This document shows, piece by piece, positions 26,608 to 40,654 of a DNA stretch of 64,000 bases (the first letter of the stretch is position 1; the number at the start of each line of letters is the position of its first letter). A program made the position numbers and the translations under genes. This DNA comes from Streptoalloteichus hindustanus (lineage in GTDB: Bacteria > Actinomycetota > Actinomycetes > Mycobacteriales > Pseudonocardiaceae), in contig NZ_FQVN01000005.1 of NCBI RefSeq assembly GCF_900129375.1, positions 124,001 to 188,000 on the forward strand, written 5' to 3'. The notes beneath the pieces were generated by a model. It saw nothing but the letters and a program-made list of their open reading frames with translations, did no database searches and was not told the origin of the DNA.

Positions 26608-29600
26608 CTACTCGTCGTGGTCGTCCTCGGCACTCCTGTCCCAGTACCTGCCCTCTTGCTGCAGGGATGCGGCGTGGTCGCGGAGGACTTGAGCGGTGTG
26701 CGGCCATCCGGCCTCGACCTTGTCGGCCCAGGCCAGGTACTTCGCCGCGGACTCCCGTTCCTGCTCTCCGCCGTCGTACAGCCCTCGGGTCGTGACTCCG
26801 ATGTTGTTGATCAGACCCATCCTGAACCCGCTCCGCAGTTCGTCGGCGTCTTCAAGATCAAGCACGTCCCGGACCGCCTCGGCGGGCCAGGCTCCGTCCT
26901 CCCCGTCGGGTCCTGCGGATATCAGTGCGCCGATGGCCTGATCGCCTGTACGCCGCAGGCCGGCCTCGTTCAGGAGTCCACGCGCCTGGCGCACCCAGTC
27001 GAGAAGGCGAACTCGGTCCACCCCGTCCCCGGTCTGTCCGGGCACGCATCGCAGGCGTTCGCCGGTCATGAAGAAACCCATCGCGCTGGGATTCACTTTC
27101 TCAGTCGGGAGATAACGGAACTGGTGTAGCTCGACGAACGCGACCGCGTCGTCGGCGATCAACTCCAGCAGTGCGCGCGGCTGCCGGTTGTGGAGCAAGC
27201 TCGCGAACGCCATCTCCCACATCGCCACTTGGCGCAGGCTGTGCCCGCTGGCGTGCATGTAGGTCAGGAGGCTTTCGACTGCGTATGCGGTGTGGGAGGT
27301 GATCTGGTCTGGTGTCTTCAGGAGACTGTGGAAAGCGGCCGTGATGAGTTCGGCTGGGGGATGCCAAACTTCTTGATCACCGTGCAGCGCAACGGACATC
27401 GCGTCGACGACGGCGTTGCCCCGGCCTCGGGAGATGAGCTCGACGAGATATTCTTCGGTCCGCGCGGTGGGCAGCGGAAACGCCGGAGTGAGAGCCCAGA
27501 AGCGGTCGCGCACGTCCAGACCTTCCCGATCAAGCTGCTCGAACGCCCAGTCCACGGGCAAGGCGAGGAGGAACGCGGCCCGACTGACGTGGTCTTCGGG
27601 GAGTGCGTTGGCCGCGTCAGCAGCCCAGTCGCGGCCACCCTCTTGAGCCCGGCAGCGAATCCACCCCTCCGCGAGTGGGGACCCGAGCCGAGCGAACACC
27701 TCGCCCTGGACCGAGTCCCCGGCGATCTGCGCGAGAGTCCACCCCACGAGGTCGCCCCGCTCGCTTGCCTCCGCGAGACGGGCCACACCGTCGACGCCGT
27801 GGCGAGCCAACTCCCCGGCGAGGGTTTCCCGCTGGAGCGATTCGACGGCGAAGCGGTGGGCTTCGAAGTCGGTCCGGTCGACTCCAGGGAGATCCGGACG
27901 CCAGGTGAACAACCAGGCATGCCTTGTCGGGTCGGAAGCCGGTTCGATTCTGGCCAGGAAGGACGACAAGCGGTCGATGTCCTCGTGTGCGAGGTGTCGC
28001 TCGTCGGCGCTGCCCCGCGCCCTACCCGTGATTCTGATCCCCTGGTCCCACAGTTCCCGCGTTTCTTCCGGACCCAAACCGCCGAATTCGGCGGTTTCGA
28101 GGGAGGAGAGGAGCAGTTCCCGGCGGATCGCTGGGAGCCCGGTGATCTGGGGGAGGTACTCCGTCCAGCGGCGAGGCTTCGCGGCCAGATCAGCCAACAC
28201 AGCGCGGAAGACCTCTTCCTGGTACGCCTCGACGCTGTCTGAGGCCGGCGCGCAGTCGTCACCGGTCCAGGTGTGCCGCACCCTCGGTCGCACGGGGTAC
28301 ATGAGCCTGTGCAGATCGGTCAGGTCGTTCAGCAGTCGCCACCCCACCTCCGGGTATCGAGTCCGCACCTGGTTGATGATCGTTGCGCGACGATCCAGTG
28401 GGATCGGACTCAGTGGCAGATGGGTGAGCAGGTTCGCCAGGGACCGGGACGGGCGGTTGCTCAGCCGCCCGCCGGGGTCGATTTCGGCCAGCTTGGCCAG
28501 CAGGAGCGTCGCAACCGTGCTGTGCTCCCGTGCCCACGCGATAGTCTCCAGTGCCCAGAGCAGCCCGGTATGCGCGGAATGCCAAGACAGTGACCAGCCT
28601 CCGGTGTCCTCGAACATGACTCGAAGCAGCGGGTCTTCACCGCGGAGTCCAGTCCTGACGGCGGAGAGGAAGACCCGAGGGGCAGCCTCGGCGAACAATG
28701 GGAGGACGTCGCTGAGGGAGCGCCAGAGCAGACCGCTCTGATCATCGTTCGCTCGCCTCAGAAGTTGGTGGACAACGTGTGCGGCGTGGTTCTCGGCCGC
28801 GTCACCGGCTACGGTCGCCGTTCCCGCATCGGCGAGGCGAGCCAGCCCGTGGGCGAGCCCCTGTCGCAGATCAGAAGACCAGGTCCGTCCGACACCGTTG
28901 ATCCTGGCGGTGGGCACGTCTCGGGCAGGGAGCGAGAGCACCGGATCGAGTTCACCCAGGACCTCCAGCGCGGCTTCGCTGAACTGGCGAATGTTCGTGA
29001 TGCTCACCTGGGCCATCAGTTGGGACGACGCATCGTACGGGTCAGCGAGTTGCCAGCGTGAGCCGCTGCGGTGGACCAGGGGGTCTCCGGAAACCGCGCT
29101 CGACTCCGCGAAATGCTCGACGGACGAGTAGTCGTGGCCGGTGATCCGTCCGATGACGTCGTGGTCGGCTTGGTTGGCGGTGGACCATCTGCTGACCAGC
29201 GCGAGCGGCACGGTGATGGCTGAGGTTGGGGCCTGTGTCCACGGCGGGCGAGGCGCGTTCGGGCTGAGCCTGCGAGTCAGGGCGCGAGGGCTACGGCGAA
29301 CGAGTCCCGCGTACTCGTTGGCTCGGTGCGGCGGCACGCCTTGGGCGAGGAAGGCGTCATGTGCCTTGTCCCTGGGCACTCGCGGCAACACCAGATCGCC
29401 AGAACGGCGGACGAACCCGTCCCGGGCGATGACCACGTGCCGGGTGCTCTGGGCGTGACTGACGGGGACGTCGTCGCTCACCACGACCGCGGGGAAGGAA
29501 GGGGGGATCTTCGCCGCGTGCTCCCACCCCGCCTTGGATGTCACCAACACCGCGCGGTGATGCGGGTTGTGGCGATCCAGGACAGTGGCCACGAACGCGG

Positions 29601-30235
29601 CCACCTCGTCCGTGGTCTGTCCCTGGACGGCCAGGTTCCCCGGTGGTCCTGCCAGCCAGGACCGCATCCGCTCCACAATGTCCTCACGACCGAGCAGGAC
29701 GAGATCCGCGGGGAGCTCGGAACTGGTCAGCGAGGTGCGCTCGCGGTTCCAGGTCGCCAGGTCCCCGATGCCCTCCCGAACGTCGATCCCCAGGTCCGGG
29801 ACGGCTTCGATCAGCCGGTCGACCAGGCCGGGGAGCATGTGCGCGTCGCGATAGGTGAGCCGGACGTACTGGCAGTTGGCCAACTTGGCGAGATCCGGGG
29901 GCAACTCGTCCACCCGGTGCATGCGCCCCGCGTGCCCGAGGACGGGGATCACCGGCTTGCCCGCGGCGAGCGCTGCGGCGATCTCCTTCCGCACGACGTC
30001 GTGCGGTTCGAACAGCCGGTGGCCGAACTCGGTCAACCACCGCTCCCCGATCACGGCGATCATCGCGGAGCAGTTCTCGACCGCCCCCCCACATGATCGG
30101 TTCGTAGTCGTGCCCCAGGTCGATGGACCTGCTCGACCGGAAGACCCGATCCCTGCCGAAGACCCCACCGAGTTCCGCGTCCAGCCAGGCAGCCTTCTCC
30201 TCGCCGTCGCCGACCCGGAAGTTGATGAACAGCAC
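26608..30235 (-). CDS. TIR protein with inactive STAND-like core, frameshifted in the TIR domain
   Basis: Two frames together encode one protein. The upstream frame, from GTG 30235 (TTG 30271 possible), gives LFINFRVGDGEEKAAWLDAEL and DRVFRSSRSIDLGHDYEPI, the first half of a TIR domain. The downstream frame continues ENCSAMIAVIGERWL and VRKEIAAALAAGKPVIPVL, with the expected catalytic Glu. The switch falls in a run of seven Gs (30084-30090); removing one G joins them into 1208 codons. After the TIR (about 1-140) comes an NTPase-like region whose P-loop is degenerate (LAVQGQTTDEV), then some 900 mostly helical residues. TIR domains of this kind can cleave NAD+ in immunity. It may be a sequencing error, a slip-prone switch or a mutation. 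The gene 30370-31371 upstream is its likely partner. Confidence 0.7.
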
Positions 30236-30369
30236 GCCGACGAGGGTGCCCCGGCGCCACCAGGGGCTCAACGGGTTTCCCGTTTCCTCTTTCCTGTCAT
30301 CGATCTCCTGACCGGGCGGATGGTCAAGCGGGCCGGACGAGCAGGGGCACGTGTGGTACAGGTCGGTGG

Positions 30370-31851: not shown

Positions 31852-34788
31852 ATGGAATTTCGGATGCTGGGGCCGCTGGAGGCATGGCACGAGGGCGCCC
31901 TGGTGCCGCTGGGGGATCAGCAGCAACGCTTCGTCCTCGTCGTGCTCCTTCTTCACGCGAACAAACCGGTGCCCGTCGAGCGGCTGACCGAGATCGTGTG
32001 GGGTGACAATCCAAAGCGCCGAAGGCTCGTGCACGGCTACATCAGTAAGTTGCGCATTGCGTTCCGGATTGCCGATGACGTGTCGATTGACCGGACGCCG
32101 ACCGGCTACCTGCTTCGGCTTTCCGAGGACCAGATGGACACCGCGCGGTTCGAGCAGCTACGCGCGGACGCCGTGCGCGAGCGCGACCAGCACCGGGCCA
32201 TTGAGCTGTTGCGGTCCGCGGTGGACCTGTGGCGCGGCCGGTTCCTGGAGGACATCGACATCGACCGGGTGGGCGGTACCGAGGTGATGTCGTTGGACGA
32301 CAGTTACCTCGACGCCGTCGGAGACCTGGCCGAGTTGGAACTGGCCGTGGGTGACCACCGGTCCGCGCGGGACAGGTTGCGCCGCGTGGTCCGGGCCGAT
32401 CCGGCCCGCTACCGACACGCTGGGTTGCTCATGCGCGCGCTGCTCGCCAGTGGTGACCGCGTGGAAGCGATCCGGGTCTTCCAGGTCACCAGGGCCGCTC
32501 TCGCCGAACTCGACATGGAGCCGGGAGCGGTGCTGCGAAACCTCCTGGCGCGAGCGGAACACGGCGACCCGGCCAGTTCCCTGCCGTTTCGGCCGGGCGG
32601 TTTCACCGGCCGCGTCCAGGAGATCGACATGATCGCGGCCGCGGCCGACGCGGGACGTCGGGCGGTGTGGGTGAGTGGTGCTCCGGGCGTGGGCAAGACG
32701 GGTTTGGCCACCGAGGCGGCGCACCGGTTGCGGGACCGGTTTCCGGACGGGCAGTTCCTGGTGCGACTCAACGGGTTCACCCCGAACGTCCCCGCGACCA
32801 GCGTTGGGGACGCACTCACCCAGCTCCTGCCGGAGCTGGGAATGCCCGCTGAGCAGATCCCCGCGTCCGATGGACAGCGGATCGCGCTGTACCGGCGGCT
32901 GCTGTACGGCACCAGAAGAGTGTTCGTGCTGGACAACGCGGCGTCGCCGGAGCAAGTGCGCCCGCTGTTGCCGGAGGCTCCGGGCTGCCTCGCCATCGTC
33001 ACCAGCAGACGGGTGGGCGAGCCGGACACCGGCGAGCACATCCGGCTCGCTCCGCTGTCGCCGGACGAGGCGATCGAGTTGTTCCGCGAGCTGGCTGGCC
33101 CAGACCGCGTTCGAGGCAAATCCGCCGAAGTGGCGGCGGTCGTCAAGCGATGTGGTTATCTGCCAATGCCAGTCCGTGTGGCGGCCGCGCTGTTCCGCAG
33201 GCACGATCGATGGCCGCTGGACCACCTCCTCCGCCTGCTGGAGGAGAGCGGGCCCTGGCACGCGGACACCGACGATGTGGCGGGAGCCGCGGCGGTGCGG
33301 GTCTCCTACCTGCAGCTCGACGAGTCGCAACGGATCATGTTCCGCCTGTTCGGCCACCTCCCGGGGCCGGACCTCGACGTGGCCGGCGCGGCCGCGCTCG
33401 TGGGCTGCGACGTCGCCGAGGCCCGGCGGCTGCTCGACGACCTGCACGAGGTGTGCCTGCTGGAGGAGGTCGCACCAGAGCGGTACCAGATGTTGGATCC
33501 GCTCAAGGAGTTCGCCGCAGCGGAGCCGTCGCCAACCACGCTGACCGAGCGGGCGGACGCCCTGCTCCGGCTGCTCAACTTCTACCTCGTCTCCTTGTCG
33601 GGCGCGGTGGGCGTGGCGTACCCGTTCGACCGCGCCCAGTTACCCACACCGAACTGTTCTTGCCCGGTGTCGCTGACGTTCGCCAACGCGGACGCCGCCC
33701 TGGCGTGGATCGGCACCGAACGGGACAACCTGGTAGCCGCCATCCGCCACGCCGCCGCACACGGCCTGCCGGAGCACGCGTGGCGGCTCGCGGTGCTGAT
33801 CTGGCGCTACTTCAACACGACCAGTCAGTTGGAGGACTGGATCGAGACCATGGAGCGGGCCCGGGAAATCGTGTTCGCCGACCAGGGCAACGAGTACGGC
33901 CAGGCGCACATCCTGCTTCGGCTGGCCACGGCACACAATCGGCTCGGGCGGCTCACCGAGGCGCGAGACCTGGCGGAGCAGGCGCTACCCCGCTGGACGC
34001 GGCTGGGAGACGTGCGTGGCGAGGCGGCCACGTTGTGCGCGATCGCCATCCCCACCACGCAGATGGGCAGGCATGACGAGGCGATCGCGCATTTCACCGC
34101 CGCGCTGAGGAAGTACGAGCAGTGCGGGGACCTGCGCGGTCAGGCCCACGCGTTGAGCATGCTCGGCTATCTCAACGAGCTGCGCGGCAATCTCGACGAG
34201 GCGCTGCGCCAACACCTGGCCGCAGTGCCCATGCTGCGCGAGATTGACCACGTGCAGGGGGTCGCGCACGCGCTGAACAACCTCGGCTCGGTTCAACACC
34301 AGATGGGGCTTCTGGACGACGCGTTGGCCAGCCACAGGGAGGCGTGGGAGCTGGCCGAGGAGGTGGGCGACGAGTGCGTGGTGGCCTACGCGCTCAACAA
34401 CATCGGCAACGTGCACCGGTCGCTGGGCCAGTTCGCGGAGGCCGTGGACCACCAGGAACGGGCCAGGGCGGTGGCGGCCACCATGTCCGACGCCGACCTG
34501 CGCACCCGGCTGCACCGGGACCGCGGCGCGACCGCCCAGGCCATGGGCAACCACGCGGAGGCGCTGCGTGCCTACCAGTCGGCGCTCGGGCTCGCGACCA
34601 GCACCGGCAACCGAGCCCACGAGGCCCGCGCCCACCGTAGCGTCGCGCGGACCCTGCACGCGATGGGCAGGCACGCCGACGCTGCCCCGCACTGGCGGGC
34701 GGCCGAGGACCAGTTCGCCGCGCTCGACCTGCCGGAGGCGGGCGAGGTCCGGGCAGAACGCGTGTCTCTGACGTGTGCCTGCCGTTGA
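31852..34788 (+). CDS. AfsR/SARP-type regulator (OmpR-like HTH, BTAD, NB-ARC, TPR)
   Basis: 978 residues, close to AfsR-like proteins. In order: an OmpR-type winged helix (about 1-92, MEFRMLGPLEAWHEGALVPL and VHGYISKLRIAF), a bacterial transcriptional activation domain (about 98-245), an NB-ARC/STAND ATPase with Walker A GAPGVGKTG (about 275-283) and Walker B RRVFVLDNAA (about 357), and TPR repeats from about 670 (AHALSMLGYLNELRGNLDEA, AHALNNLGSVQHQMGLLDDA, AYALNNIGNVHRSLGQFAEA). Such proteins activate secondary-metabolism or adaptive genes when ATP and a ligand trigger oligomerisation. Leu597 is encoded by TTA (33640-33642), so translation may depend on the bldA tRNA. The ATG follows GGGAGGGCTGA. 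Target unknown. Confidence 0.93.
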   Translation: MEFRMLGPLEAWHEGALVPLGDQQQRFVLVVLLLHANKPVPVERLTEIVWGDNPKRRRLVHGYISKLRIAFRIADDVSIDRTPTGYLLRLSEDQMDTARFEQLRADAVRERDQHRAIELLRSAVDLWRGRFLEDIDIDRVGGTEVMSLDDSYLDAVGDLAELELAVGDHRSARDRLRRVVRADPARYRHAGLLMRALLASGDRVEAIRVFQVTRAALAELDMEPGAVLRNLLARAEHGDPASSLPFRPGGFTGRVQEIDMIAAAADAGRRAVWVSGAPGVGKTGLATEAAHRLRDRFPDGQFLVRLNGFTPNVPATSVGDALTQLLPELGMPAEQIPASDGQRIALYRRLLYGTRRVFVLDNAASPEQVRPLLPEAPGCLAIVTSRRVGEPDTGEHIRLAPLSPDEAIELFRELAGPDRVRGKSAEVAAVVKRCGYLPMPVRVAAALFRRHDRWPLDHLLRLLEESGPWHADTDDVAGAAAVRVSYLQLDESQRIMFRLFGHLPGPDLDVAGAAALVGCDVAEARRLLDDLHEVCLLEEVAPERYQMLDPLKEFAAAEPSPTTLTERADALLRLLNFYLVSLSGAVGVAYPFDRAQLPTPNCSCPVSLTFANADAALAWIGTERDNLVAAIRHAAAHGLPEHAWRLAVLIWRYFNTTSQLEDWIETMERAREIVFADQGNEYGQAHILLRLATAHNRLGRLTEARDLAEQALPRWTRLGDVRGEAATLCAIAIPTTQMGRHDEAIAHFTAALRKYEQCGDLRGQAHALSMLGYLNELRGNLDEALRQHLAAVPMLREIDHVQGVAHALNNLGSVQHQMGLLDDALASHREAWELAEEVGDECVVAYALNNIGNVHRSLGQFAEAVDHQERARAVAATMSDADLRTRLHRDRGATAQAMGNHAEALRAYQSALGLATSTGNRAHEARAHRSVARTLHAMGRHADAAPHWRAAEDQFAALDLPEAGEVRAERVSLTCACR

Positions 34789-34846: not shown

Positions 34847-36046
34847 TCAGCGTCTGTTCAGCACGCGGGCCAGTTCCGGGGAGATTTCCCGGACCGTGCG
34901 GTGCTGACGCCACCGGCCGAGGGTTCTGGCCAGGGCTCGGAGGTCCACGCGGATGGTCGCGGAGTCGACGTGCGCCGCGTCGTCGAGCGTCTCCGCCAAC
35001 GTCAGGCAGCTCTGGTCGACCTCGCCCGCCAGCGCGTACGCCAGTGACCTGCGGGTTCCGAACCGGGCTCTGGTGCGACGAGACGCTGCTGGTAATCGAG
35101 CCATCTCCCGGTCGAGGACGGCTGCCGCCTGGTCCGCCCACCCGAGATCGCACAGCGCCCAACCCCTGGCCAGCTCCACCGGGTCCGGCGCGGTCGAGCC
35201 GAGCACCGGATAGGCACGAGTGTCTACAGTGGACGAACCGAGGAGCTCGACGGCGCGGTCCAGCGCTCGTTCGGCGGAGTCCCGGTCACCCGCCAGGGCG
35301 TGCCCCTGGGCCTCCCGGCGGGCGGCCAGGGCGAGAGTGCGCGAGCTGGCCCACTCGGTCCGCTGGGCCTGTTGGGCCAGGGCGATCGTGCTGACGGGGT
35401 CCTGCCGGTAGAGCGCGAGCCCGGCCTCCCGGACGAACGCGTAACTCCCGATGTCCCGGTCGCCGCCCGCGGTCGCCAGCGTCGACGCGTGGCGAGTCCA
35501 CCACAGCGCGGTCAGCTCGTCGCCCGCCTCCTGGTTCATCCACCCGATGTACTCGGCGATTCGCGCGGCGAGCAGCAGCAGACGCGACCTGATCGGGTCG
35601 GGGTTCTCCCCGGCGAGCGCGCACACGGTGCGCGCCAGGGCGGTCAGCGGGTCCAGAACCACCACCGGGCTCGTCCGCATGCCGAGTGAGCGCAGGTGCT
35701 CGAACGAGGCGCGCATCCCGACGACCACCTGCTCGTCAGGAACCGGTCGCGGCCCGCCCGCGAGCGTCATGCCGAGAACCGTGCCCGCGACGAGCACCTG
35801 GCGGCGGTCGAGCGTGGGCCCGACCGGGGCTCGGTCGCGCGCCGAGCGGGCGGCCTGGATGAGCGCGCCGCCCGCGTCCAGTGCTCGGTCGCAGAGGCGG
35901 GCCAGGGCCTCGTGCGGTGCCTTGAGGCCGTTCTCGATCTTGCTGAGATGTCCCTTGCTGTAGTGGACCCGCTTGGCCAACTGGTCCAGGGACAACCCCG
36001 CGGCGGCGCGGTGTTCGCGCAGCAGTTCACCAAATGATTCGGCCAC
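34847..36046 (-). CDS. XRE-type regulator with TPR-like C-terminal domain
   Basis: 399 residues. The HTH is at about 5-62: FGELLREHRAAAGLSLDQL, KRVHYSKGHLSKIENGLKAP and ALARLCDRAL. The rest is all-helical and built like TPR repeats (EAGDELTALWWTRHASTLAT, YRQDPVSTIALAQQAQRTEW, ALAGDRDSAERALDRAVELL, WALCDLGWADQAAAVLDREM). This is the architecture of peptide-receptor regulators of the RRNPP type in Firmicutes, and of many orphan actinomycete regulators. A small secreted-peptide gene lies directly upstream on the same strand, separated by a hairpin, so a peptide ligand is an attractive hypothesis. No direct evidence for ligand or target. Confidence 0.85.
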   Translation of the reverse strand: MAESFGELLREHRAAAGLSLDQLAKRVHYSKGHLSKIENGLKAPHEALARLCDRALDAGGALIQAARSARDRAPVGPTLDRRQVLVAGTVLGMTLAGGPRPVPDEQVVVGMRASFEHLRSLGMRTSPVVVLDPLTALARTVCALAGENPDPIRSRLLLLAARIAEYIGWMNQEAGDELTALWWTRHASTLATAGGDRDIGSYAFVREAGLALYRQDPVSTIALAQQAQRTEWASSRTLALAARREAQGHALAGDRDSAERALDRAVELLGSSTVDTRAYPVLGSTAPDPVELARGWALCDLGWADQAAAVLDREMARLPAASRRTRARFGTRRSLAYALAGEVDQSCLTLAETLDDAAHVDSATIRVDLRALARTLGRWRQHRTVREISPELARVLNRR

Positions 36047-36105
36047 CTGTGCCTCCTGCTCAGACGGGCGTCGAGTACATCACTTCCGATGGTCGGGCGC
36101 AATCG

Positions 36106-36140
36106 CCCGGTCGCTCGTGAAATGCTCACGAGCGACCGGG
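36106..36140 (-). terminator. Hairpin between peptide gene and XRE-TPR gene
   Basis: CCCGGTCGCTCGTGA pairs perfectly with TCACGAGCGACCGGG (15-bp stem, 5-base loop). It begins 19 bases after the small-peptide stop. It would end most peptide transcripts while letting some read through into the regulator gene. Confidence 0.8.
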
Positions 36141-36158
36141 AAAGCGTTTCCGGAACAA

Positions 36159-36332
36159 TCACCCGTGCCAGGGGTTGCCGTCGGGGTCGGACGTCGTCGA
36201 GATGCTCGTTCTGGCGGTCAGGGCGTCGTTCCCCGGAGCCGCGGTGGTCCTCACCGGTCCGGGGGTCGTCGCGTACAACATGGCCAGCAGGCAGGCGGTG
36301 GTGGTCAGGAAAGTGGACTGGGACCTGCACAT
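36159..36332 (-). CDS. Small secreted-type peptide, candidate signal for adjacent regulator
   Basis: 57 residues: MCRSQSTFLTTTACLLAMLY is a basic then hydrophobic start like a signal peptide, followed by a Thr/Ala-rich middle and the C-terminus SDPDGNPWHG. A strong GGAGGG lies six bases before the ATG, and a 15-bp hairpin terminator follows the stop, both supporting a real gene. It is on the same strand as, and 112 bases upstream of, the XRE-TPR regulator. By analogy with RRNPP systems, the exported C-terminus could be trimmed into a signalling peptide. An alternative is a small lipoprotein-like or RiPP precursor. No homologue is recognised. Confidence 0.6.
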   Translation of the reverse strand: MCRSQSTFLTTTACLLAMLYATTPGPVRTTAAPGNDALTARTSISTTSDPDGNPWHG

Positions 36333-36573
36333 GGCGAACCCTCCAGCGGAAATCGGCGATTGATCGCGGGGATTGTCCGGCAATTTCCGTCCCCACAACG
36401 AGGATTCAACAGGCGCGGTGGCCCAGCAAGGCGTTGCCCGTTTCCCGACGGTGCGGGCAACAGGACGTGGCGGCATCCACATCTCGTCCACTTCTGGTCG
36501 ACACCCGTCCGCCACGCTGCGCCGGTACGTCGAACAGCCGGCCGAGGGGCCGGCGCGAACATGGAGGTTTTCA

Positions 36574-37470
36574 GTGAGCGAGGTTGCGACCTACGACGTC
36601 GCCGTGTCCTTCGCCGAGGAGCAGCGCTCCACCGTGGCCGAGGTGGTCGAGGCGTGCCGGCAGCGTGGGCTGCGGGTGCTGCACGGGCCCGAGCAGACCC
36701 ACGAGTGGTGGGCGCACAAGGGCGGGGGCGACCTGCCGGAGGCGCGGGTCCGGTTCTTCCTCCCGTTCGTGTCCGCGGTGGACGACTTCACCGCGGACAT
36801 GCTGCGCGCGGCCAAGGCGGGCGACGAGCACGTGCTGCCGGTGCTGGTCGACGACGTGGCGGTGCCCACGGCCCTGCTGCACCCGCACGTGGCCTACCTC
36901 CGCGTCAGCGGGCGCCGGACCGACCAGCTCATCGAGACGCTGATCGTCCGGATCGAGGCGGCGGAGGCGGCCGGGTGGGAGCGCGCGCCGGTCACCGAGG
37001 TGGTGACCAGGGCCAAGGGGCTCGCCCCGGTGGCGGTGATGCCCAGCACCTTCAGCCGTTACCTGGAGCAGGACGCTGTCCTGCGCTATCTGGGCGAGCA
37101 GTTCGTCGCGGCGGTGCCGGGGCTGAGCCAGCGCGGGCTCGTCGGCACCGTCCACATCGGGGACTCGCGGATCACCGTGCGGGTCGAGCGGGCGGGCGAC
37201 ACCGTGTACGCGCTGGACATCCAGCGCGGCGGCATCGGTGGCGACGAGACGGTCAACTTCGTGCTCGGAAGGCACGCCGCGGGCAGCGCGTGCAGCAACG
37301 GCTGGGTGCGGCCGGTGTACGACACCGAGACGGGTGCGGCCGTGCTCGAACTGCACGACCTGTCGTTGCTCGGCCTCGGCGCCACCGAGCCGCGCACCTA
37401 CCACCGCGAGGAGCTGTTCACGGCCCTCTGGCAGCGGATCGACACGGTGCTGGCGTCGACCGTTCGCTGA
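36574..37470 (+). CDS. TIR-like domain protein with unknown C-terminal domain
   Basis: 298 residues. Residues about 5-130 follow the TIR pattern: YDVAVSFAEEQRSTVAEVVE (first strand and helix), GLRVLHGPEQTHEWW, ARVRFFLPFVSAVDDFTADM and HVLPVLVDDVAVPTALLHPH. At the place where active TIRs have a WTxxE-type Glu, it reads DFTADML, so the catalytic Glu appears missing. Residues about 150-298 are a strand-rich domain I do not recognise (VGTVHIGDSRITVRVERAGD, VYALDIQRGG). The GTG at 36574 follows GGAGG at 36563-36567. It may be a ligand-binding or scaffold TIR in the surrounding conflict island. Confidence 0.7.
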   Translation: MSEVATYDVAVSFAEEQRSTVAEVVEACRQRGLRVLHGPEQTHEWWAHKGGGDLPEARVRFFLPFVSAVDDFTADMLRAAKAGDEHVLPVLVDDVAVPTALLHPHVAYLRVSGRRTDQLIETLIVRIEAAEAAGWERAPVTEVVTRAKGLAPVAVMPSTFSRYLEQDAVLRYLGEQFVAAVPGLSQRGLVGTVHIGDSRITVRVERAGDTVYALDIQRGGIGGDETVNFVLGRHAAGSACSNGWVRPVYDTETGAAVLELHDLSLLGLGATEPRTYHREELFTALWQRIDTVLASTVR

Positions 37471-37531: not shown

Positions 37532-40500
37532 TCAGTGCGGGCGGCTGCCGTGGGCCCGGTCGAGCACCTCCTCCAGTCGCAGCGGGTGGGGCGGGTGGTG
37601 GCTCAGGCACAGCGGCGCGCTCATCCGGCGGAACCCGAACGTCTCCCCGGTGACGTAGAACTGCCCGCGCTCCAACCGCGAGATGTCTCCGACGGAGCTG
37701 CCCTTGGCCCTGGCCATCTCGGTCGCCGCGGCGATCTGCGCCGGGCTGTTCAGCCTGCCGAAGAACTGCGTTGTGGCGTTGCCGACGATCTGGTTGTGCA
37801 CGCCTTTCGGCGCCTGGGTGGCGAGCAACAGGCCCAGCCCGTACTTGCGCGCCTGCGAGGCGAGCAGGATCGTGCTCTGCGTACTCGCCGTCCGGGTCCC
37901 CGACGGCGCGATCGTCTGAGCTTCGTCCATCACCAGCAGCCCGCCGAGTGGCCGGTCCACGGCGGGATTGCGCCTGATCCAGGCGAAGACCTCCAGCTGG
38001 AGCTGGCTGACGAACCCCTGTCTCTGCTCCTCGGACGGCAGTCCGACGAAGCTGACGACCGAGATCCGCGCCCGCTTGCCCGGCCGCGGGGTGAGCAGCA
38101 CACCCGGGTCGGTTGTCTCACCCGAGCCGCCCAGGAGGGGGTCGTTGACCATCGCGGCCCGCAGCGTCTCGGCCAGGTCGGCCGCCGTCACGGAAGCGGT
38201 GCCGAGCGTGCTCACCCCCTCCGGCAGTTCGGCGAGGAGGTCGACGAACCGGGTCAGGTCGCGTTCTCCCCTGCGTGCGTAGTAGGCCAGGGCCTCACGC
38301 AGCACCGCCTGGCCGCGTGCGGCGGCCTTGGTGTCACCGGCCACCCGGGCGTGCGGGATCAGGCGGGCCACGGCTGCCTCGACCGAGGCGGAGAACTCGT
38401 CGACGTCCTCGCGTACCTCGGCGAAGTCCGGCAGCGGGTGGAAGCTGAGTGGCCGCCCACCCGCCCGCCCCGGGGTCCACACCACCACCTCGGTGGTGGC
38501 CATGTACTCGGCGGCCCGATTGGCGTCACCCGGCCGCCAGCCCGCGGGCGGCTCCGGCCACGCGTCGCCCAGTCTCGCCAGGTCGTTGTTCGGGTCCAGC
38601 ACGATCGCCGAGACTCCCCGCAACGCGCACTCCTCAACAATCCTGCGCAGCAGCACGGTCTTTCCACTCCCGGAACCGGCGAAGACAACAGCGTGCTTGC
38701 GCAGCGCCTCCAGCTCGATGCGGATCTCGTCCTCCAGCCCGAGCGCGATCTCTCCGGGGGAGAGCGGCGACGCCTGCGGTGACGGTGATGGTGACGGCGG
38801 CGGCCTCGTCTCCTGGTGCCCTGTCCTGGCCCGTCCCGACTCGGGCAGGATCTCCCGCAGGAAGGTGTTGCGGCTGGCCGGTTTCCGTGCCACCAGCCAG
38901 GCCAGCAACTGGTGGGTCTGCTCGGACAGCATTTCCCTGAGCGCGCTGAACGTCCGGAGGTCGTCGTCTGACACCTCGACGCGCTGCCCGCCCGCTCGCT
39001 CCAGCTCGGCGACCTCGTCCCTGGTCTTCTGACCCGTCCACCCCTGCTCGCCGTTGCGGATCAGGACCAGGTGCCGGTCTCGCGCGCCGGGGCGGATTCC
39101 CGCAGCGGCACAGGCACCGCGCATCCTGCGCAACACCCGGTTGCCGTGACTGCAGGCGATGAGCCGGAATCCCCAGCGCTCGACGGTGTCCAGCGTCTCG
39201 TTCACGGTGCGGCGCAGACCGGCGTGCAGGCGCTTGTCTCCGTCGGGCAGCGGCTCCGGGCGCCACGTCAGGTCGTCGTTGCCGACCTCGGTGATCCAGG
39301 ACTTCAACCCCGCCAGCAGCAGCGCGGGCATGACCTCGTCCTCGTTGTGCTGCTTCAGCTCGGCGGCCGAGATGTCGGCCTTCTCCCGCAACCGCGCGAA
39401 CCGGGCGTCGAGCTCCGCGAAGTAGTCCGGCTCCGGGCCGACCGGTGCGGGTGCGGGCGCGGGCACCTCGACGGTCTGCTCGTCGAAGGAGCTCAGCTCC
39501 CGGATCTCGCCGTACATGCAGGACTCCGCGTGCGCGTGGATGCGCTTGAGCAGCTCTCGTGGGGTGCGAGCAGCCCAGGCACCGGCGAACGCGCTCGGCG
39601 CCACCGGCCAGGTCGGGTGGGGCGGAGTGAACCCGATGCGCTCGTAGATCACCCGGAGCCACCGCTCGACCAACGTCCGGCCGATCGAGGGTTCCACGAT
39701 GGAGCCCAGGATCGGTGTCTCGTTGAATCGGTCATGCACCGTGTCGCTGACGACCGAGTGCAGTTGCTTCCAGGTGTTTGGCAGACACGCGACAACGGTG
39801 AGAGTTCGTCTTGTGGTGTCGCGCAGCTGCATCAACCCGTCGGCGATGAGTGCGAGCTCCCGCGCGAGCTCGGTGCCCGTCACCTGTTCGTCAATGGCTT
39901 CCTGCGCCATGTTCACGAGGGTGTCCAGCTGATCGATGGCGACGACACAGGGGCCGGTCAGCGCGAGGACGCGCGAGATATCGCGTACCAGCGTCCGCGA
40001 CGGCTTCGGTCTGGTGTGAATGCCCCAGTGTCCCCAGTGCCTGCGCGCGTCACCTGTCTCCGTCAGCCCCTGCAGGTATGCCAGTCCGACGTCGGGGTGC
40101 TCGGACCCGTACAACGCCAGCGCCCGGATCGTGTCGGCACACTCGACCGCGATCCGTCCGTCCACTTTGCGCAGATGGTTGATGAAGGTGCGTAGGTGGT
40201 CTGGAGTCAGCGGTGCTTCGTTCACGATCGTTCGCGAGACTTCCTCGGGCACATCGGCTGCTGCGGACAACTGTCGCAGCAACACGGTGAGCTGGAGTTC
40301 GCCGTCGTCGTTGGCGCGACGCAACTCGCTGCGCATGGCATCGGCGACGTCGTCCCAGAACGCCTTGCCCGAGGTCAGCTCGATCAGGAAGAAGTACCCG
40401 CCCTCCGCCTGCACCCTGCGGCGCACCGAGCCCAGCAGGTGGGTCTTCCCGACGCCCTTCTGTCCCTGGAGCACCAGCCCGACGGGACTGGCGTCGGGAC

Positions 40501-40654
40501 TGGCTTTGGCGTCCGTGATCCCAGCATGGACGCGGTCCTCAGCGTTGCTGTGCAGCCCCTCCACGTGGGAGGGCGACGCGTGCCAGACATCGTCCGGGGT
40601 CTCGGCGGAGTTGAAGCGGAGCGCGGCGAGTGCCCTGCGTAGCTGCTCACTCAT
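37532..40654 (-). CDS. Double ATPase: N-terminal AAA/STAND-like plus C-terminal HerA/FtsK-like
   Basis: 1040 residues with two complete P-loop modules. The first has Walker A QGQKGVGKTHLL at about 63-74 and Walker B CVVAIDQLDTL near 240. The second has Walker A FAGSGSGKTVLLRR at about 655-668, DPNNDLARLGD soon after, Walker B GGLLVMDEAQTI near 905 and LLLATQAPKGVHNQIVGNA, the sensor block of HerA/VirB4/FtsK translocases. A Pro/Ser-rich linker (PPPSPSPSPQASPLSP) precedes the second module. Such a chain could load and pump DNA, with the first ATPase as regulator or sensor. It is the last gene of the four-gene TIR operon, overlapping its upstream neighbour by four bases. Confidence 0.88.
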   Translation of the reverse strand: MSEQLRRALAALRFNSAETPDDVWHASPSHVEGLHSNAEDRVHAGITDAKASPDASPVGLVLQGQKGVGKTHLLGSVRRRVQAEGGYFFLIELTSGKAFWDDVADAMRSELRRANDDGELQLTVLLRQLSAAADVPEEVSRTIVNEAPLTPDHLRTFINHLRKVDGRIAVECADTIRALALYGSEHPDVGLAYLQGLTETGDARRHWGHWGIHTRPKPSRTLVRDISRVLALTGPCVVAIDQLDTLVNMAQEAIDEQVTGTELARELALIADGLMQLRDTTRRTLTVVACLPNTWKQLHSVVSDTVHDRFNETPILGSIVEPSIGRTLVERWLRVIYERIGFTPPHPTWPVAPSAFAGAWAARTPRELLKRIHAHAESCMYGEIRELSSFDEQTVEVPAPAPAPVGPEPDYFAELDARFARLREKADISAAELKQHNEDEVMPALLLAGLKSWITEVGNDDLTWRPEPLPDGDKRLHAGLRRTVNETLDTVERWGFRLIACSHGNRVLRRMRGACAAAGIRPGARDRHLVLIRNGEQGWTGQKTRDEVAELERAGGQRVEVSDDDLRTFSALREMLSEQTHQLLAWLVARKPASRNTFLREILPESGRARTGHQETRPPPSPSPSPQASPLSPGEIALGLEDEIRIELEALRKHAVVFAGSGSGKTVLLRRIVEECALRGVSAIVLDPNNDLARLGDAWPEPPAGWRPGDANRAAEYMATTEVVVWTPGRAGGRPLSFHPLPDFAEVREDVDEFSASVEAAVARLIPHARVAGDTKAAARGQAVLREALAYYARRGERDLTRFVDLLAELPEGVSTLGTASVTAADLAETLRAAMVNDPLLGGSGETTDPGVLLTPRPGKRARISVVSFVGLPSEEQRQGFVSQLQLEVFAWIRRNPAVDRPLGGLLVMDEAQTIAPSGTRTASTQSTILLASQARKYGLGLLLATQAPKGVHNQIVGNATTQFFGRLNSPAQIAAATEMARAKGSSVGDISRLERGQFYVTGETFGFRRMSAPLCLSHHPPHPLRLEEVLDRAHGSRPH

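Follow-up and report, generated by a model that had tools for sequence, protein, structure and literature searches.

According to PMC10075063, quorum-sensing systems of the RRNPP type are described from Firmicutes, whereas small molecules are given as the typical quorum signals of Actinomycetota. PMC10936776 presents large SARPs, AfsR among them, as activators of antibiotic production; there, the activity of AfsR is reported to be restrained in vitro by its own NB-ARC and TPR domains, it is called elusive whether the TPR sensor binds an inducer, and MalT is cited as sensing maltotriose. The nearest described arrangement to the one reported here is that of the FxSxx-COOH peptides and the AP-ATPase-TPR proteins, for which a role as toxin or signal has been proposed (PMC7159879).

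The locus reported here lies in a window of 64,000 nucleotides of Streptoalloteichus hindustanus DNA (the whole stretch analysed, to which all coordinates refer; Table 1). A preliminary description of positions 34847-36332 had likened it to the RRNPP layout. The likeness holds in that a leader-bearing propeptide with a conserved C-terminal end is encoded beside an intracellular TPR protein, here an XRE regulator with an HTH and, in its model, a TPR-like superhelix. However, the layout is not simply an RRNPP receptor-propeptide pair, because the constant neighbour of the peptide is a convergent AfsR-like SARP, encoded outside 34847-36332. Unlike in the RRNPP systems, the constant partner is thus an NB-ARC STAND-class SARP, found mostly in Pseudonocardiaceae genera, and the genes of the peptide and of its receptor candidate converge. 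This SARP has the domain order of AfsR and the large Streptomyces SARPs (DNA-binding/BTAD, NB-ARC, TPR), but falls below the AfsR equivalog cut-off and has a dedicated peptide with a Sec-like leader. It is like MalT in combining a TPR sensor with a STAND transcription activator, and unlike MalT in that its proposed inducer is a peptide. With the FxSxx-COOH systems the locus shares a variable small precursor, a short conserved C-terminal motif and an AP-ATPase with TPRs (PMC7159879); it differs by its Sec-type leader, by the SARP DNA-binding domain carried on the NB-ARC-TPR protein, and by tails of the type [GDS][NH]xWx[GDN] in place of the FxSxx motif. The neighbour clusters listed or annotated here included no recognisable radical-SAM/SPASM or metallopeptidase gene.

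Table 1. Features of the peptide locus, in window coordinates.
Feature	Position	Strand	Remarks
AfsR-like SARP gene (DNA-binding/BTAD, NB-ARC, TPR superhelix)	31852..34788	plus	978 residues; proposed peptide receptor
XRE-TPR regulator gene, NsdA family	34847..36046	minus	accessory regulator in the favoured explanation
Perfect inverted repeat	36106..36140		candidate terminator without U-run; between peptide and XRE genes
Propeptide gene	36159..36332	minus	57 codons from ATG; Sec-like leader; C-terminus GNPWHG
Ribosome-binding site GGAGGG (forward-strand CCCTCC)	36339..36344	minus	5' of the peptide ORF
Conserved peptide-promoter operator with -35-like region	36425..36464	minus	best matrix window, score 48.5
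TIR-like protein gene	36574..37470	plus	divergent from the peptide gene; upstream region common to both
AAA/HerA-like ATPase gene	37532..40654	minus	neighbour in 33/57 peptide loci

The product of the peptide gene is MCRSQSTFLTTTACLLAMLYATTPGPVRTTAAPGNDALTARTSISTTSDPDGNPWHG. The 57-codon frame with a strong GGAGGG, ending with the ten residues SDPDGNPWHG, was borne out as first described, and the aligned relatives have a GGAGG-like site at the equivalent spot before the peptide start. We aligned 81 propeptides of 54 to 62 residues, the start codons of which were chosen by a script; this set, together with its upstream regions, comprises the 83 peptide loci minus L114 and L073, the latter left out as the script found no start codon within the length range. 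The mean pairwise identity is 83% over the last six residues versus 39% over the remainder, and the tail codons differ synonymously; together, this suggests that the C-terminal peptide is under purifying selection. The key role that had been given to the C-terminal residues is consistent with these figures, the conserved part being the last six. A lysine or arginine occurs at residues 2-8 in 80 of the 81 propeptides, as in a Sec-like leader. The hydrophobic leader seen earlier is present in the window's copy but weak, its best 15-residue mean hydrophobicity (1.58 versus a median of 2.31) being the lowest of the 81 measured. The window's peptide has no Pfam or NCBIfam match at E 0.001. The tails observed on leader-bearing ORFs with the motif at SARP and XRE loci fit the pattern given above.

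We searched 390 family genomes for a codon-degenerate pattern of GNPWHG plus T[AG][AG]. It occurs in 62 of them, once in each, whereas the reversed-pattern control matched none of the same 390. Among these 62 matches, 57 are genuine propeptide genes, the window's own included. The others were dropped as chance motif matches: L078, L080 and L096 have TGG in the stop position, L076 is a repeat protein and L108 is a 27-residue ORF without leader. In 396 phylum-wide genomes, the sole match to G[NH]PWHG followed by TGA was the window's own; an XRE search of 60 genomes yielded 22 loci, again with the window's own, and a first look at them found a small ORF ending in GNPWHG in at least three others. 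The open-access literature had no NPWHG or GNPWHG among the GNPW matches listed, nor a title on this module among the matches listed for SARP/AfsR/NsdA, actinobacterial peptide signalling and FxSxx. The peptide is real, and probably a new signalling peptide.

Which regulator goes with the peptide was read from both sides. The SARP gene adjoins 56 of the 57 GNPWHG genes, on the opposite strand and convergently, and the SARPs of the 55 relatives (one of them, L081, partial) are 59.9-73.5% identical to the window's. The exception is L114 (genome G167), which was retained among the 57: its genome has no SARP at E 1e-200, and its peptide gene may be an orphan signal or belong to a decaying module. 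The XRE gene adjoins 33 of the 57 genes, and the other 24 have no adjacent XRE; in the genomes of these 24, an XRE homologue was found at E 1e-45 in seven and in none of the remaining 17. Seen from the XRE, a search of the 390 genomes with a threshold of E 1e-80 found 71 loci, spread over 69 of the genomes, namely 52 close orthologues (at least 64% identical, the window's own included) and 19 distant ones. The preliminary description had proposed to look for a small ORF beside homologous regulators, and had named its absence as a refutation; the peptide is present beside all 52 close orthologues, with the GNPWHG tail in 33 and variant tails in 19 (GNPWHD in seven, GNPWYG in six, GHPWHD in two, and GNPWQD, GNPWFG, GNVWHG and DNPWHG in one each). 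Eight of the 19 distant XRE loci have an adjacent SARP, and seven of these eight have a peptide (tails GHPWID, GHDWMD, GHPWSN, GHEWIG, GHDWSG, GHSWIG and GHSWID). The XRE relatives that lack a SARP have no peptide (0/11).

The loci found via the XRE, with the tail ignored, thus have the peptide in 26 of 27 cases with a SARP and in none of the 11 without. Over all 94 loci with a SARP or an XRE, the peptide occurs in 82 of the 83 with a SARP and in 0/11 without (Fisher p 1.7e-13, a value inflated because 56 loci were found via the tail and the loci are related). Judged by these gene neighbourhoods, the constant partner of the peptide is the convergent AfsR-like SARP and not the XRE, which we dropped as an obligate partner. 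The peptide gene does lie upstream of the XRE gene on the same strand, as had been stated, with 112 nt between the peptide stop and the XRE start codon, but the partnership read from this order did not hold, and the two are not inherited as an RRNPP pair would be.

A search by SARP alignment alone, from two seed patterns, gave the same association. With the best 80 of 334 relatives kept, it yielded 79 loci, of which 54 are at least 47.7% identical and 25 at most 39%. Leaving out L222, which lies at a contig edge, 52 of the 53 testable orthologues among the best 80 of 334 have the peptide, and 51 of these 52 carry a C-terminal [GD][NH]xWx[GDN] on a leader-bearing ORF; the peptide of L232, an SHGWVG variant, was found by leader scan. 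The tail motif occurs beside none of the 25 paralogues kept among the best 80 of 334, one of which (L256) has just 743 nt of downstream sequence. This test and that in the 390 genomes are not mutually independent, since the genomes overlap. Within the best 80 of 334 relatives, the 54 orthologue loci are mostly from eight genera of the Pseudonocardiaceae (Amycolatopsis, Lentzea, Actinokineospora, Saccharothrix, Kutzneria, Goodfellowiella, Labedaea and Actinophytocola); exceptions are records entitled Nocardia sp. NRRL S-836 and Streptomyces sp. SID13031, and a fragment entitled as a Melainabacteria MAG. Two further sets, of 60 and 74 genomes, were searched with the SARP; with a match at E 1e-200 in 26 and 6 of them, they added five SARPs new to the XRE and tail searches. 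Four of the five have a peptide (GHPWHG in L165, GHIWID in L166, GNPWHD in L270 and GHSWGD in L272); L165, L166 and L272 are L195, L223 and L217 of the 79-locus search. No XRE lies within the retrieved stretch of L270, and L217 has a 43% XRE-like match about 1.7 kb off. The fifth, L271, encodes a SARP (69% identical) with no peptide recognised, and L163 (the same locus as L227) is likewise a SARP orthologue without recognisable peptide; these two, together with the peptide without SARP at L114, count against the explanation that we favour. In the 1,500-nt flanks of the 11 SARP paralogues of the window's own genome, we found no peptide with this tail, and no convincing candidate among the small leader-bearing ORFs near them.

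The window's SARP has BTAD, NB-ARC and TPR matches above the Pfam cut-offs and a Trans_reg_C match of 22.6 bits, under the cut-off of 26.2, so that a single chain carries the domain set of a large SARP. It matches the AfsR chains 8k60 and 8jke over positions 3-865, and scores 361.2 bits against the AfsR equivalog NF053617, the cut-off of which is 1430. Its AlphaFold2 model (54 sequences; mean pLDDT 87.4) aligns with AfsR in the DNA-binding part (Z 22.5, this and all other Z values coming from a second aligner and not from plain Foldseek). Some 350 residues of the TPR part can be superposed on the pheromone-bound Rap receptors 8rsv (Z 29.3), 4i9c (29.1) and 4gyo (28.6), and the same part aligns with MalT (29.5), NprR (27.3) and, bound to an RxxGP degron, APPBP2 (31.6). 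The TPR folds predicted for the SARP and the XRE are compatible with peptide binding, but fold likeness falls short of showing it, because TPR superhelices of unrelated function (APC subunits, LGN) align well too. Polar residues conserved in the TPR part of the SARP, for instance N626, H806, N810 and R856, are pocket candidates.

The XRE, the gene of which converges with that of the SARP at a distance of 58 nt, has HTH_31 and HTH_3 matches above the Pfam cut-offs. It belongs to the NsdA family of regulators (150.6 bits against NCBIfam NsdA_fam_reg, NF053720, cut-off 75), but is not NsdA itself (30.1 bits against 830). The main text of the NsdAsr paper (PMC12243394) does not contain 'ligand', 'TPR', 'tetratricopeptide' or 'peptide signal'. 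The TPR-like repeats ascribed to the XRE in the preliminary description appear in its AlphaFold2 model (57 sequences; mean pLDDT 88.8) as a helical superhelix following the HTH; the Pfam scan had no TPR model among the matches listed. The XRE model aligns with MalT (Z 19.4), AimR (18.1), Rap (17.9) and NprR (15.7). Foldseek against the PDB gave no row at E 0.001 or better, the top row being PlcR with PapR at E 1.4e-3.

These alignments, the peptide gene beside every close XRE orthologue and the resemblance of the peptide operator to sites upstream of SARP-less XRE genes (see below) would suit a pair in which the XRE-TPR protein itself is the peptide receptor, as in an actinobacterial counterpart of the RRNPP systems, with the SARP acting downstream or in parallel. 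We consider this unlikely, in view of the 24 peptide genes without an adjacent XRE, 17 of them in genomes with no XRE homologue at E 1e-45, and of the peptide-free XRE relatives that lack a SARP. The changes of the tail, moreover, follow the TPR part of the SARP more than that of the XRE. This last point comes from a tree of the 52 loci that have both proteins, with tail changes on 11 branches, compared by 20,000 branch-matched permutation draws matched for type and amount of change, the changes of each region being taken relative to its own total. On the tail-change branches, the SARP TPR part changed in excess of the SARP DNA-binding domain (ratio 1.60, p 0.002), of the XRE TPR part (1.19, p 0.046) and of the NB-ARC domain (1.31, p 0.054). 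An equal excess is seen in the SARP's arm region (residues 421-565), and the signal is thus shared by more than the TPR part. A column-by-column analysis of the co-variation of the tail with the SARP and the XRE had found no convincing column among 1,113. We therefore grade as moderate the evidence that, in these alignments, the tail and the SARP TPR part change together beyond expectation, as the permutation test was chosen after the column test had failed; the domain-level excess itself is modest. On balance, a STAND-class activator appears the likelier receptor than the XRE.

The upstream region of the peptide gene has a conserved operator, in which GTTKCCC half-sites face GGGMAAC half-sites; next come a CCTTGT-like -35 and, after another 18-20 nt or so, GAATC. 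It lies 70-97 nt 5' of the start codon across the 81 regions, and the arrangement is kept both with and without an adjacent XRE gene. The matrix that scores it was trained on the same 81 regions, so its scores are partly circular; two regions score below 15 (L146, 4.3; L158, 8.0) and seven more below 30. The strict tandem of half-sites also occurs upstream of 6 of the 11 XRE genes without SARP, preceding the XRE start by about 35 nt in L153 and L156 and by about 450 nt in L155, L156, L160, L162 and L164. An assignment to the SARP type was dropped, as the same half-sites precede SARP-less XRE genes, and no SARP-type 11-bp direct repeat was seen by eye in the operator. From these site comparisons, the operator is probably of the XRE type, a point that weighs against the explanation favoured here. 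Since it remains where no close XRE was found, another reader must exist there, perhaps the SARP. In the window's own genome, GGKMAACRGKMAMC had three matches, the peptide promoter among them, versus five for the reversed control, so that no wider operator regulon can be claimed. Between the peptide and XRE genes, the private 15-bp terminator of the preliminary description is indeed a perfect repeat (arms 36106-36120 and 36126-36140 of 15 nt each, 100% complementary, with a 5-nt loop), and the RNA of 36095-36158 folds at -35.3 kcal/mol (z -5.14 versus shuffles). As the hairpin has no U-run, its role as a terminator is plausible at most.

From the retention of the GNPWHG peptide beside one sensor-type activator across numerous soil-dwelling relatives of antibiotic producers, which suggests a previously undescribed signalling system, we propose the following pathway. 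The peptide gene would encode a secreted pro-pheromone, the signal peptide of which, to judge from the leader, would be cleaved on export. An extracellular protease would release a short conserved C-terminal peptide, about DGNPWHG, which an oligopeptide importer would take back up. Inside the cell, the peptide would bind the convergent SARP at its TPR sensor and, by analogy with STAND proteins, lift the autoinhibition by NB-ARC, whereupon the SARP would activate transcription. The XRE-TPR regulator would be an accessory layer, probably acting at the peptide operator and tying the module to the TIR-like gene. The case for a peptide signal, as read from the sequences, is strong; that for the SARP as its receptor is good but circumstantial. 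Taken together, a secreted, C-terminally processed and re-imported pheromone that binds the SARP TPR sensor, with the XRE as accessory, is the explanation towards which we lean. The wider proposal, that a dedicated pheromone induces a STAND-class AfsR-like SARP, as a form of peptide quorum sensing in Actinomycetota with the tail variants as lineage-specific dialects and with wiring to TIR conflict genes, stands in our estimate a little short of an even chance.

SARPs commonly control product genes, and the peptide might accordingly be a SARP-controlled effector, antimicrobial or modified, with a W-H core, instead of a ligand. The conserved C-terminal peptides beside AP-ATPase-TPR proteins, proposed in PMC7159879 to be toxins or signals, leave room for such a role. 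We find it quite unlikely, given that the conserved neighbour clusters listed or annotated included no gene recognisable as that of a peptide-modifying enzyme, and that the changes in the SARP TPR part coincide with those in the tail, which an effector would not need. More doubtful again is a dual-receptor scheme, in which the peptide would bind the SARP, an activator, and also the XRE, which would repress the same promoter until relieved by the peptide: both regulators adjoin the peptide gene in 59 loci, both models have TPR folds like those of peptide receptors and the promoter has an XRE-like operator, but the peptide genes without an adjacent XRE speak against a general scheme of this kind. 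Finally, a non-signalling surface or regulatory small protein, for instance a SARP-regulated product like AfsS, a small protein (PMC2267785) the gene of which is activated by AfsR via a promoter box (PMC10936776), is very improbable in view of the Sec-like leader in nearly all copies and of a strong conservation limited to the six C-terminal residues, a pattern that a structural small protein would rarely show.

Returning to the pheromone-SARP explanation, the XRE seems to go with the TIR gene, and the peptide with the SARP, both pairs being joined in the window. This grouping follows from the TIR-like homologue being present in the retrieved stretch of 47 of 60 loci with both XRE and SARP versus 1 of 23 with the SARP only, and from the TIR-like genes that come after SARP-less XREs: among the 6 of 11 SARP-less XRE loci whose neighbours were read, four (L155, L156, L162 and L164) have a TIR-like gene within about 40 nt of the XRE. 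The one scanned, that of L155, has a TIR_2 match above the cut-off and is followed by a gene with an nSTAND3 match below the cut-off; the window's own TIR-like gene matches TIR_2 with 18.7 bits (E 0.0026), short of the cut-off of 28. The SARP-less pairs are likely XRE-controlled TIR conflict operons, and in the window the XRE probably tunes both the peptide promoter and the neighbouring TIR-like gene. The ATPase of the window has HerA-like parts and a weak similarity to MADS mad8.

Elsewhere in the window, positions 30060-30290 (minus strand) encode a TIR-like N-terminus, VLFINFRVGDGEEKAAWLDAELGG, out of frame with a 1186-residue ORF at 26608-30168, as if the TIR-like start had been frameshifted from that ORF; a 62-residue piece of this region had no Pfam match. 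Just upstream, at 30275-30288, is a tandem site that resembles the operator, GTTTCCCGTTTCCT. Divergent from the SARP gene of L069 (L069:8126-9617) are two genes that recur in XRE-less loci, one vWA-like by eye with no Pfam match, the other with a DUF746 match below the cut-off; the pair are possible SARP targets.

For this branch of the SARPs, a conserved cognate peptide would offer a direct and cheap test of the TPR-inducer question, and the tail dialects permit cross-talk experiments. If the proposal is true, a peptide signal would be added to a phylum for which small molecules are the quorum signals typically described. Silent genes of Amycolatopsis and related producers might then be switched on trial with a defined peptide only six or seven residues long.

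At one of the 25 distant paralogues, in Saccharothrix luteola (L234), we noticed a gene for an unrelated secreted peptide ending in KWYIFPWW, about 90 nt past the gene of a 35%-identical paralogue and convergent with it. This single case may hint that other large SARPs have peptides of their own.
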